NCBI GenBank assembly: GCA_016280395.1
Contig: JAEEGQ010000142.1
Span: 1-64,000, forward strand
Direction: 5' to 3'
From: Lachnospiraceae bacterium
GTDB lineage: Bacteria > Bacillota > Clostridia > Lachnospirales > Lachnospiraceae
DNA: 64,000 nucleotides
Translations under genes and position numbers: made by a program
Shown here: positions 29,510 through 36,375 of the stretch, one piece after another
Position numbering within the stretch: the stretch's first letter is position 1
Layout: each line of letters opens with the position of its first letter
Notes under the pieces: model-generated
Database searches by the model: none
Told to the model about the DNA's origin: nothing
Seen by the model: the letters and a program-made list of their open reading frames with translations, nothing else

Positions 29510-29929
29510 TCATCCTTTGATCTTTGCAATTAATGCTTCCTGAAGAACCTGCGAGAAATTAATGTTTTTTTCCTGCGCCGCAAGGTTAAGCCACGCAGGG
29601 ATTGTAAGTGTTTTACGGACAGACTTTTCAAAATGTGCCTTTGCATATTCTTTTACATCCACAGAGACCATATTTACAAAAGCATCTTTGGAATCTGCCT
29701 CCAGCTCTTCTGCAACTTTATCAACAGAAATATCTTTCAAGTTCGAAGCCGCAGGAACTGAATCCCCGTCTTGTTTAAGCACATATAGATAGCCCGCAAG
29801 ACACTCTACGGCTTTATTATACGCATCCTTTTCATTTTTGCCGCTTGTAGCCAGCCAGTTAAGATCCGGGAATACTACAGAATAACCGTTTTTTTCTTTA
29901 AAAAAGCACGCGGGATAAATTGAAAGCAT
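29510..29929 (-). CDS. hicB: HicB-family antitoxin
   Basis: YPACFFKEKNGYSVVFPDLNWLATSGKNEKDAYNKAVECLAGYL HicB fold; C-terminal RHH-like KTLTIPAWLNLAAQEKNINFSQVLQEAL. Confidence 0.87.
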   Translation of the reverse strand: MLSIYPACFFKEKNGYSVVFPDLNWLATSGKNEKDAYNKAVECLAGYLYVLKQDGDSVPAASNLKDISVDKVAEELEADSKDAFVNMVSVDVKEYAKAHFEKSVRKTLTIPAWLNLAAQEKNINFSQVLQEALIAKIKG

Positions 29930-29949
29930 ACAGTTCTCCTTTCGTGTTC

Positions 29950-30138
29950 CTATTCCAATCCTGCTTGTTTTCGGATTGATTTTTCAATAATCTTGGACAG
30001 TTCTTTACTATGGAACGGAATTGTTACTTTTCCAGTTTTTATCGGATGAACATAATGTCTATGGGAGCCTTCCTGGCTTTTAAAAACCCAGCCATCTTTT
30101 AATATTTCTTTTTCCATTTCTCTTGGCTTTTTAGGCAT
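29950..30138 (-). CDS. hicA: HicA-family toxin
   Basis: KPREMEKEILKDGWVFKSQEGSHRHYVHPIKTGKVTIPFHSKELSKIIEKSIRKQAGL; catalytic-type GSHRHY; ATG 30138 with GGAGA upstream. Confidence 0.88.
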   Translation of the reverse strand: MPKKPREMEKEILKDGWVFKSQEGSHRHYVHPIKTGKVTIPFHSKELSKIIEKSIRKQAGLE

Positions 30139-30193
30139 AATGCTCTCCACTGTTATTATAATATGCAGCACGTGTCGTGTCAATGCGCATTTT

Positions 30194-30209
30194 GATGATA
30201 CGTATCATC
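30194..30209. promoter_or_regulatory. Candidate operator upstream of hicA
   Basis: Perfect 16-bp palindrome GATGATACGTATCATC; adjacent palindrome AATGCGCATT at 30182-30191. Confidence 0.55.
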
Positions 30210-30284
30210 CTGTGCCGTTTTATTTATGGCACCTAGTATATCACAGCAATGAGTTTGTGTCAATAATTTTACGGCACAGGACGG

Positions 30285-30315
30285 TAAAAAAGGAGCAGTC
30301 CCTTCGGACTGCTCC
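30285..30315 (-). terminator. Flagellin Rho-independent terminator
   Basis: GGAGCAGTCC-gaag-GGACTGCTCC-TTTTTT on minus strand. Confidence 0.88.
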
Positions 30316-30355
30316 CTGAATGTGCTTATTAACATGCTTTTCAGTAGCCTTAGGC

Positions 30356-31168
30356 TTATCTGAGGAGTGAAAGAACACCCTGAGTACTCTGGTTAGCCTG
30401 AGCAAGCATAGACTGAGCTGCCTGCTGAAGGATGCTATCCTTCGAGAACTTAACCATTTCCTTAGCCATGTCAACGTCACGGATACGGCTTTCAGCTGCC
30501 TGTAAGTTCTCAGATGTGTTATCATCATTGGTGATGGTGTGCTCAAGCCTGTTCTGCCAAGCACCAAGCTGAGATCTCTGCTCGGAAACTGTCTTGATCG
30601 CATTGTCAACTGTGGTGATTGCACCTTCAGCCGAAGCCTGATCTGCGATGGAAAGACCGTCAACGCCGATACCGCTTGCTGACATATCACCGATCGAGAT
30701 TGTCATTGTCTGACCTTCGTTTGCACCGATGTGTAAGAGCTTGTCCGAGAAGGAATCGTCAAGAAGCTTCATGGTGTTGAACTCTGTATCGGTGGAGATA
30801 CGTGTGATTTCTTCTGCGAGGGAATCAACTTCCTTCTGGAGTGCTGCACGATCGTCTTCAACGTTTGTATCGTTTGCCGACTGAACTGCAAGTTCTCTCA
30901 TTCTCTGAAGCATTGCGTGTGTCTCGTTAAGAGCACCTTCTGCTGTCTGGATAAGGGAGATACCGTCCTGAGCGTTGGTCGAAGCCTTGTCAAGACCACG
31001 GATCTGTCCGCGCATCTTCTCGGAAATCGAAAGACCAGCTGCGTCATCGCCTGCGCGATTTACTCTGTAACCGGATGATAATTTCTCAGTTGCCTTCTGT
31101 AAGTTGCCGTTTGTGATACCAAGCTGTCTGTTGGTATTGGCTGCTGTCATGTTGTGTTGAATAATCAT
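30356..31168 (-). CDS. hag: Flagellin
   Basis: 270 aa; MIIQHNMTAANTNRQLGITNGNLQKATEKLSSGYRVNRAGDDAAGLSISEKMRGQIRGL...LAQANQSTQGVLSLLR. Confidence 0.97.
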   Translation of the reverse strand: MIIQHNMTAANTNRQLGITNGNLQKATEKLSSGYRVNRAGDDAAGLSISEKMRGQIRGLDKASTNAQDGISLIQTAEGALNETHAMLQRMRELAVQSANDTNVEDDRAALQKEVDSLAEEITRISTDTEFNTMKLLDDSFSDKLLHIGANEGQTMTISIGDMSASGIGVDGLSIADQASAEGAITTVDNAIKTVSEQRSQLGAWQNRLEHTITNDDNTSENLQAAESRIRDVDMAKEMVKFSKDSILQQAAQSMLAQANQSTQGVLSLLR

Positions 31169-31191
31169 AAGTTTTCCTCCTTGAAATTAGT

Positions 31192-31207
31192 GTAGCGTCC
31201 TTGCTAC
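31192..31207 (-). promoter_or_regulatory. Candidate CsrA-binding hairpin in flagellin leader
   Basis: Minus strand GTAGC-AAGGAC-GCTAC (GGA in loop), just upstream of the Shine-Dalgarno AAGGAGG. Confidence 0.6.
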
Positions 31208-31223
31208 AATTTGATTTTGTTTT

Positions 31224-31323
31224 GGCCTTTGGCCGTTTGCTTTTGGAGCTTTGCTCCGATGTGGACCTTCGGTCCTTTTTTGTTGTGGGGCTTTGCCCCG
31301 TGTGGGCGGCTTGGTTTACCGCC
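31224..31323 (-). repeat. Array of five short stem-loops in the flagellin 5' UTR
   Basis: + strand GGCCtttGGCC (31224-31234), GGAGCtttGCTCC (31245-31257), GGACCttcGGTCC (31263-31275), GGGGCtttGCCCC (31287-31299), GGCGG...CCGCC (31305-31323). Confidence 0.85.
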
Positions 31324-31388
31324 TAAATCTTTTGGTATGGTGTGTTGGTATTGTTTGTGTAAGCAGTTGTTGTTTGCTTACACTAAAT

Positions 31389-31415
31389 ATATCGGAGCCC
31401 TTTCGAAATACTTTA
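31389..31415 (-). promoter_or_regulatory. Sigma-28 (SigD/FliA) promoter of flagellin
   Basis: Minus strand TAAAGTAT-N11-TCCGATAT. Confidence 0.8.
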
Positions 31416-31536
31416 GTACTTTTTTAAAAATTTTTTTGTTTTTTTCAAAAGTCGCGTATCTGCTGGGTTTTCGGGCCTTCCGTTTTATCTTTCTGCCGGC
31501 TGTTTTCCGGTTTCATGCTGCCGGGTCCACCGGATG

Positions 31537-32022
31537 TCACTTCTTTTTATCCATAAAGTAGGCGTCTCCATCCTGGGGTTTTCCGGTCATGTTCTTATAA
31601 TATGTACTTACCGTTTTGCTGCTTACTTTGAAATCCTTGATCTTCTTTTTCTCAAGAGCGGATACCTGTTCAAACAGCATCCTGTTCTGTTCCTCAAGCG
31701 CCTGGATCTTAACGCCCGTATCCGTAAGCAGCCTGATTTTTCCCTGCAGGCCTTCTATTTCGGTCCTGTACTTTTCTTTATTGGAAAGAAGCTCCGCGGA
31801 AACCTTGGCGTATGTATCGGAGAATCCCCTGTCAAGACGTTCGAGCCGGTTCAGGAGTTTTTCTTTTTTATCAAGGGTCTCCTCGAACTCATCACCGGTC
31901 CGCCCGTCTTTTAAGATCGCGTTCTGGTCCTTTGTGACTGAAAGGATCTCATCAAGCGTCTTTTCCTTATTCACAAGGATATCGGAAAGCATACCTATAT
32001 AGGTCTTTGCATTGTCAGCCAT
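31537..32022 (-). CDS. Coiled-coil protein in flagellar locus (possible export-chaperone-like)
   Basis: All-helical charged protein MADNAKTYIGMLSDILVNKEKTLDEIL...; position between fliS and flagellin. Confidence 0.6.
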   Translation of the reverse strand: MADNAKTYIGMLSDILVNKEKTLDEILSVTKDQNAILKDGRTGDEFEETLDKKEKLLNRLERLDRGFSDTYAKVSAELLSNKEKYRTEIEGLQGKIRLLTDTGVKIQALEEQNRMLFEQVSALEKKKIKDFKVSSKTVSTYYKNMTGKPQDGDAYFMDKKK

Positions 32023-32087
32023 CTCTTCTACCTTCTTTCTCTCTTTTCTATATAGTAACAAACCTGCCGTCCCTTTTCAAGAGCAAG

Positions 32088-32118
32088 TGAGTCAGCGGGG
32101 TCGTTTCCCGGTGACTCA
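32088..32118. repeat. Copy of dispersed TGAGTCA/TGACTCA palindrome
   Basis: TGAGTCAGCGGGGTCGTTTCCCGGTGACTCA. Confidence 0.8.
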
Positions 32119-32212
32119 TTTTCTTCCTCAGGCCCATCCTGCAAGAAAAACCGCATTGCTGCGGTTTTTCATGGTCTAACATTATAAGGGGGAGTTTTAT
32201 GAAAAAAGAGGG

Positions 32213-32596
32213 TTATGCAACATAAAGGTGATTCTTCTTCATTACTTCCTTCCATGTATCACGCATGGTACGGATGTGGCCTAAAGCCTCAAGAGCGATC
32301 TCTTTATCCTTCTTGATATTGGCCTCTACAAGCCTGCGGTAGATGTAATCGTAAACAACATCAAACTGGTTTGCAACCTCATACTTGAAATCAAGAGTCA
32401 TACGGAACTCTACGATTATCTTCTGTGCTTTGATAAGGTTGGTGTTTGCCTTCGCAACGTCTCCTGCCTCAAGTCCGTCGATAGCCATGTTGCAGAACTT
32501 GATCGCTCCGTCGTAGAGCATCAGTGTAAGCTCTGCGGGAGATGCTGTGTTTATTCTGTTTCCCTTATATAAAGCCGCTGCATTGGGTGGTGTCAT
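32213..32596 (-). CDS. fliS: Flagellar export chaperone FliS
   Basis: NAAALYKGNRINTASPAELTLMLYDGAIKFCNMAIDGLE; ATG 32596 with GGAGG. Confidence 0.93.
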   Translation of the reverse strand: MTPPNAAALYKGNRINTASPAELTLMLYDGAIKFCNMAIDGLEAGDVAKANTNLIKAQKIIVEFRMTLDFKYEVANQFDVVYDYIYRRLVEANIKKDKEIALEALGHIRTMRDTWKEVMKKNHLYVA

Positions 32597-32706
32597 ATTA
32601 TTTGCCTCCGCCGTGATTATTCTAAACTCATTCTGATCAACCGGTTGTGTCAACAGCCTTGGACTTTCTGTTGTAAAATGTCCCGCGCTGTTTTCTTACA
32701 CAAGAT

Positions 32707-35567: not shown

Positions 35568-35786
35568 TTAGAACAGCTTGTTGATGTCGTCCACCGAAGC
35601 CTTGACTTCCATAGCTTCTTTGTTGGACTGCTGGATCTGTGTGTAGATCTCTTTTCTGTAGATCGGAAGCGACCTCGGGGCAGTGATGCCGATCTTTACC
35701 TGGTCGCCCTTGACCTCGAGGATCGTCACCTCGATGTCGTTGCCAAGCATGATGGACTCATTGCAATGTCTCGATAATGCTAACAC
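35568..35786 (-). CDS. csrA: Carbon storage regulator CsrA (GTG start)
   Basis: (V/M)LALSRHCNESIMLGNDIEVTILEVKGDQVKIGITAPRSLPIYRKEIYTQIQ; GTG at 35786 with GGAGGG upstream (listed ATG at 35876 is upstream of this). Confidence 0.93.
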   Translation of the reverse strand: MLALSRHCNESIMLGNDIEVTILEVKGDQVKIGITAPRSLPIYRKEIYTQIQQSNKEAMEVKASVDDINKLF

Positions 35787-35787
35787 T

Positions 35788-36249
35788 TTAAGCCCTCCCC
35801 TCTTTCTTCGCCTGCAGGATATCGTAGATCTCGTATTTGATGGGGAAATCCTGATTCTCAACGATGATCTGCGCACCCTTGCGGTTGTCGGAATTGATTA
35901 TGATGGGAGCACGAAGGTTAATGGACATCTTCTTAACATCCGCAGGTACGGTAAGCGTGGTAAGAAGCACGATATTCTCGTCCGTAAGCTCGCCGAGGGG
36001 CTTCAAGAGCTCGTCTTCAACATCCGGATTGTAATCCTCGGCAATGCCGAGAGGACTTATAACCGGGATGGCAAGCTCAGGGATATCACAGCACTGAAGC
36101 CACGATACCGGAGGACGCTCGCCCTCGCTCGAATCGTACAGGAGCGTGTACTGCTTGTGATCTTCAAAGCCCAGGATGCCGTTATCAAAGGTAAGGATCC
36201 TGTCGTCTGCGATGTCTACTTCACCAAAATGTCTTGTTTTGATAAGCAT
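35788..36249 (-). CDS. fliW: Flagellar assembly factor FliW
   Basis: MLIKTRHFGEVDIADDRILTFDNGILGFEDHKQYTLL; ATG 36249 with GGAGG; abuts csrA. Confidence 0.94.
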   Translation of the reverse strand: MLIKTRHFGEVDIADDRILTFDNGILGFEDHKQYTLLYDSSEGERPPVSWLQCCDIPELAIPVISPLGIAEDYNPDVEDELLKPLGELTDENIVLLTTLTVPADVKKMSINLRAPIIINSDNRKGAQIIVENQDFPIKYEIYDILQAKKEGRA

Positions 36250-36375
36250 GTGGGTAACCTCCCTGTCACCGGATTTCAGGCTTACAGTCCGTTTGTAAAC
36301 CGCAAGTCCGATCACTTTTATATTATATTGATTTTTCTTTCAGGTCAAGAGTAAAATGACTCCCGCCTTCAATTT

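Follow-up and report, generated by a model that had tools for sequence, protein, structure and literature searches.

The flagellin locus and its leader

The 64,000-nucleotide stretch of DNA analysed here, hereafter the window, carries on its minus strand a flagellin gene (30356..31168, start codon ATG at 31168) with the Pfam domains Flagellin_N and Flagellin_C; in motile Lachnospiraceae, flagellin ranks with the most abundantly produced proteins, and it is a known immune signal. Upstream on the same strand stands a sigma-28 promoter, TAAAG-N15-CCGATAT (31389..31415; TAAAG at 31415-31411, CCGATAT at 31395-31389, spacer 15 nt), and the same motif precedes flagellin in most leaders of the family. 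With this promoter on one side and the Pfam-supported gene on the other, the initial annotation had correctly placed the promoter and correctly taken the interval between them for a flagellin 5' UTR. Counted from the predicted transcription start, the leader is about 215 nt long; a leader peptide was rejected, no minus-strand open reading frame of at least 20 aa being found within it, and an Rfam search of positions 30000-32700 gave no credible match above the gathering score.

The genes csrA (35568..35786, minus strand; Pfam CsrA, 4e-23), with a likely GTG start at 35786 inside the listed ORF 35568-35876, and fliW (listed ORF 35788..36315, minus strand; Pfam FliW, 8e-37), whose first homologous ATG is probably near 36249, lie in the same window, 4-5 kb upstream of the flagellin leader. 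Directly downstream of flagellin, 29510-30141 holds a HicB-like antitoxin gene preceded by a short HicA-like frame. A second, longer flagellin-like gene (L005, a 529-aa open frame) is located at G000 contig C54:54900-57600, and neither the array nor the CsrA-type hairpin described below was seen in its leader.

Read on the minus strand, the leader begins with a 9-bp hairpin at the predicted mRNA 5' end (GTGTAAGCA / TGCTTACAC; 31357..31383, pair probability 0.99), which had been overlooked and is added here. Many relatives have a hairpin at the same 5'-end place, often AAGTAA...TTACTT. Then come an A/C-rich block (ACAATACCAAC...ACCAxACC; 31331..31354, minus strand), identified by alignment and common to the genus-mates and G175, and the array of five mini-hairpins. 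A second overlooked feature, the CsrA-type hairpin TGTAGC-AAGGAC-GCTACA with its ANGGAN hexaloop (31191..31208, minus strand), lies about 10 nt ahead of the Shine-Dalgarno (SD) sequence AAGGAGGA (31175..31182, minus strand), itself invariant in the genus alignment and likely a second CsrA site.

In 65 of 73 family leaders, a permissive search recovered a GGA-loop hairpin upstream of the SD, its end in most cases 9-15 nt away and its loop nearly always NGGA closed by A-T, or ANGGAN. Over 58 of these leaders, the six pairs of this stem are 91% paired, with both-side changes at 6/6 pairs and 106 both-side cells against 27.7 in shuffles, figures to be read knowing that the 58 hairpins were selected for having the stem, which inflates the percentage paired and, in part, the covariation. 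The covariation signal is lost when the partner is shifted by 1 to 3 columns, and even with the selection, the range of pair types seen at a constant position before the SD is striking. The ANGGAN hexaloop is a known target of CsrA/RsmE (PMC7652899), binding of CsrA at two sites is a known mode in the hag leader (PMC6529632), and the same layout has been predicted for fliC of C. difficile (PMC8523840); our literature search on Lachnospiraceae flagellin leaders found no useful paper. The leader examined here combines an ANGGAN hairpin upstream of the SD, a GGA overlapping the SD, and csrA and fliW in the genome, from which we infer CsrA binding and a flagellin leader of the CsrA/FliW-controlled (hag) type. 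The suggested link to CsrA very probably holds for the leader, which does have a CsrA-type site, though by way of the separate hairpin and the SD and not of the array.

Content of the hairpin array

All five of the mini-hairpins claimed at 31224-31323 are present, with perfect stems and predicted pair probabilities of about 1 (0.99-1.0). On the minus strand and in RNA order, these are hairpin 1, GGCGGTAAACCAAGCCGCC (GGCGG-TAAACCAAG-CCGCC, 31305..31323), hairpin 2, GGGGCAAAGCCCC (GGGGC-AAA-GCCCC, 31287..31299), hairpin 3, GGACCGAAGGTCC (GGACC-GAA-GGTCC, 31263..31275), hairpin 4, GGAGCAAAGCTCC (GGAGC-AAA-GCTCC, 31245..31257), and hairpin 5, GGCCAAAGGCC (GGCC-AAA-GGCC, 31224..31234). Four of them have the 3-nt loops described earlier, whereas the loop of hairpin 1 has 9 nt (7 with a G-U pair), so that this hairpin is not a triloop. 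The loops had been assigned to the right sites but written as ttt/ttc, which is the complement; since the hairpins are read on the mRNA strand, the triloops are in fact AAA, GAA, AAA and AAA, and their closing pair is mostly C-G. The observation that stems vary while geometry is kept proved accurate, as the three triloop hairpins with 5-bp stems differ at paired positions 3 and 4, which change together. The spacing is even, with hairpin centres 18-24 nt apart.

Chance is not a good explanation of the array. A density like that of the array, 4 triloop hairpins (stem 4 bp or longer) in 100 nt, was reached in 1/5000 dinucleotide shuffles, and the array has a minimum free energy of -40.5 kcal/mol against a shuffled mean of -22.7 (z -6.04), figures which somewhat overstate the surprise because the array was picked out of a large window. 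It is the densest 100 nt for such triloop hairpins across the 64-kb window, and the whole leader, from promoter to gene start, has a folding z of -6.8. The frame GGNNCRAAGNNCC has 64 matches genome-wide: beyond the array about 5 of 61 are perfect palindromes, with about 4 expected, and inside it 3 of 3. Searches of the genome itself for a second copy of the array gave only short unrelated matches. A dispersed, REP-like or mobile repeat was rejected, the 25-nt match in C77 sharing only an A-rich stretch and the 19-nt match in C94 a single palindrome.

Three further candidates were considered and rejected. When the array is shuffled 200 times or deleted, the predicted folding remains at 0.95-0.96 for the CsrA hairpin and at 0.99 for the 5' hairpin, and SD accessibility with shuffled arrays is unaffected (about 0.6); the neighbours fold regardless of the array, which is therefore not there to keep them folded, and insulation of the CsrA hairpin and SD against misfolding was discarded. 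A CsrB-like sponge was likewise set aside, as the repeated loops are AAA, GAA or TAAACCAAG and the GGAs of the array are buried in stems, making them poor CsrA sites and the array no CsrA array. Lastly, a sense-strand intrinsic terminator or attenuator does not agree with hairpins that are followed by A-rich linkers and not by a U-run, and a search of the leader for terminator-like sites gave none on the minus strand.

Flagellin leaders in related genomes

The genus comprises four genomes, of which one is without the flagellin and two besides that of the window have a readable leader (L006 and L007). These genus-mates are distant, with about 70% flagellin identity and a G+C content of about 39%, against 44% at the locus and 50% in the window. 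The promoter, the A/C-rich block that follows the 5' hairpin and the SD align between their leaders and that of the window, and the genus-mates also carry a GGA hairpin (GGTTGCAAAGGATGCGACC), misplaced by the alignment. The array is missing from both, the stretch between the block and the GGA hairpin being A-rich and folding at -0.2 and 0 kcal/mol, and no compensatory changes in the array stems were obtainable from these two leaders.

The family survey covered 299 genomes, 84 of them with the flagellin; leaders of the family and of named Bacilli and Clostridia together gave 131 testable sigma-28 leaders, window's included. More than two GC-rich triloop hairpins were found in no leader among the 131 except that of the window, single ones occurring in L130, L143 and L165 among others. 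Because only this leader has more than two and the genus-mates have none, the array appears, on present data, to be specific to the window's lineage. The initial annotation had read its constant geometry as selection for structure, and conservation of that structure finds no support in the relatives, the genus being the closest range covered: hairpins are not kept at the genus level (L006, L007), and the array is unmatched in the 131 leaders. By the refuting condition that the annotation itself had set, a leader whose hairpins are lost in close relatives, the comparison speaks against conservation within the genus. Across the family, mid-leader hairpins show only a mild excess over shuffles (15 against 8.8 in the group without the GUACG element described below, three of the 15 coming from the window), so that the array is not an instance of a general rule.

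The same middle slot holds, in 23 of 47 Lachnospiraceae leaders (those that have a CsrA-type hairpin and whose middle segment is long enough), a covarying element with a GCGUACGG loop. Placed after the 5' hairpin and before the CsrA-type hairpin, it has two helices, an outer and an inner one, with a purine-rich internal loop between them and a 9-nt loop NGYGUACGR, and its carriers belong to other genera (L145, L152, L157, L163, L166, L026, L047, L171 and others); it is absent from the window genome and the two genus-mate leaders. Of its helices, the inner one covaries (26 both-side cells against 10.2 in shuffles), whereas the outer ones could not be aligned; the length of the internal loops is variable. 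The element is flagellin-specific. Across the 299 genomes, the exact core GGAGCGTACGGCC was counted 22 times, 7 copies lying inside long open frames and 15 preceding a flagellin start (11 by coordinates, plus L189, L200, L207 and L210, with L189 at 249 nt). No Rfam 15 family was matched by any of 15 leaders, a set in which 12 carry the element. The loop core CGUACG is self-complementary, and as the CGCGCG of L171 keeps this property, a loop-loop (kissing) dimer is possible from this single case. The element looks more interesting than the array.

Taken across the family, the plan of the flagellin mRNA is fixed, with a 5'-end hairpin, a variable middle, a CsrA-type hairpin and the SD, the support being covariation, for the CsrA-type hairpin; the middle slot is filled either by the conserved GCGUACGG-loop element or by lineage-specific sequence such as the array. 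Judged by its sequence, the leader of the window is a predicted CsrA/FliW-type leader with an unusual lineage-specific insert. The parts of such leaders are testable, which gives a way into how Lachnospiraceae set flagellin output.

Possible roles of the array and comparison with known systems

According to our prediction, CsrA would occupy both the ANGGAN hairpin and the GGA of the SD, thereby blocking translation; flagellin export would free FliW, which would remove CsrA and lift the block. The five mini-hairpins would be a lineage-specific insert in the variable middle of the leader, where the genus-mates have a plain A-rich stretch. With moderate confidence, we propose that this is a CsrA/FliW-type leader in which a lineage-specific array acts passively, by stability and spacing, a passive structure being preferred on account of the number, GC-richness and even spacing of the stems. 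Lying between the 5'-end hairpin and the CsrA site, these very stable local stems would leave less single-stranded RNA open to endonucleases and might in this way affect mRNA lifetime. The array would set distance, without any switching, and the CsrA hairpin would fold without it. For spacing alone, five separate perfect stems are more than is needed; the 5'-end hairpin alone may already give protection, and the genus-mates presumably produce flagellin without the array, so that a stabilising role would not be general.

It is also possible, if clearly less probable, that the array has no function, its palindromes having arisen through local template switching where an A-rich leader under weak constraint held imperfect inverted repeats, and having been tolerated there. 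Such template switching would yield perfect stems with 3-nt spacers, as are seen here, and the absence of the array in the genus-mates, the free variation of the leader middle across the family and the independent folding of the neighbours all agree with this; it would, however, require 4-5 evenly spaced events within 100 nt of one highly expressed leader, and perfect palindromes of the frame are at chance level elsewhere in the genome.

We consider it unlikely that the array is a lineage-limited, multi-copy platform for an RNA-binding protein reading A-rich triloops, which, if true, would put a second control layer on the flagellin mRNA beside CsrA/FliW. Repeated geometry, similar loops and mostly C-G closure on differing stems would be suited to such a protein, but the array is not conserved even within the genus, no such array exists elsewhere in the genome and there is no candidate protein. 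That the array serves as a CsrA decoy, or as a platform with several CsrA sites, is more doubtful still: two of the array hairpins start with GGA and the leader has a CsrA-type site, but those GGAs lie in stems with pair probability of about 1, and GGA within base pairs weakens CsrA/RsmE binding (PMC7652899). Least probable of all is that the opposite-strand hairpins are terminators against antisense transcription, since the plus-strand terminator-like sites in the leader (e.g. GGACCTTCGGTCC-TTTTTT) are a simple consequence of sense-strand linkers rich in A, every flanking flagellar gene is encoded on the minus strand, and no gene is known that would read in from the plus strand.

The leader can be compared with four known systems. 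One is the hag leader of B. subtilis, where CsrA has two sites and is antagonised by FliW: both are flagellin leaders with an upstream GGA site and an SD site, in genomes with csrA and fliW. Unlike hag, the window leader is longer (about 215 nt) and has a 5'-terminal hairpin and a five-hairpin insert, and its CsrA binding is predicted. In E. coli leaders of the glgC type, a hairpin site tethers CsrA beside the SD, and the window leader similarly has a GGA-loop hairpin just ahead of a GGA-containing SD; the gene and phylum differ, and the likely antagonist here is FliW and not CsrB/C. Stem-loops of the ompA type at the 5' end stabilise bacterial mRNAs, and a stable stem stands at the predicted 5' end of the window leader as well, whereas the array is internal and repeated and its stabilising effect is a proposal. 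Finally, the sponge RNAs CsrB and RsmZ share with the array a series of short hairpins, but the loops of the array are AAA/GAA and not GGA, and it sits in an mRNA leader.
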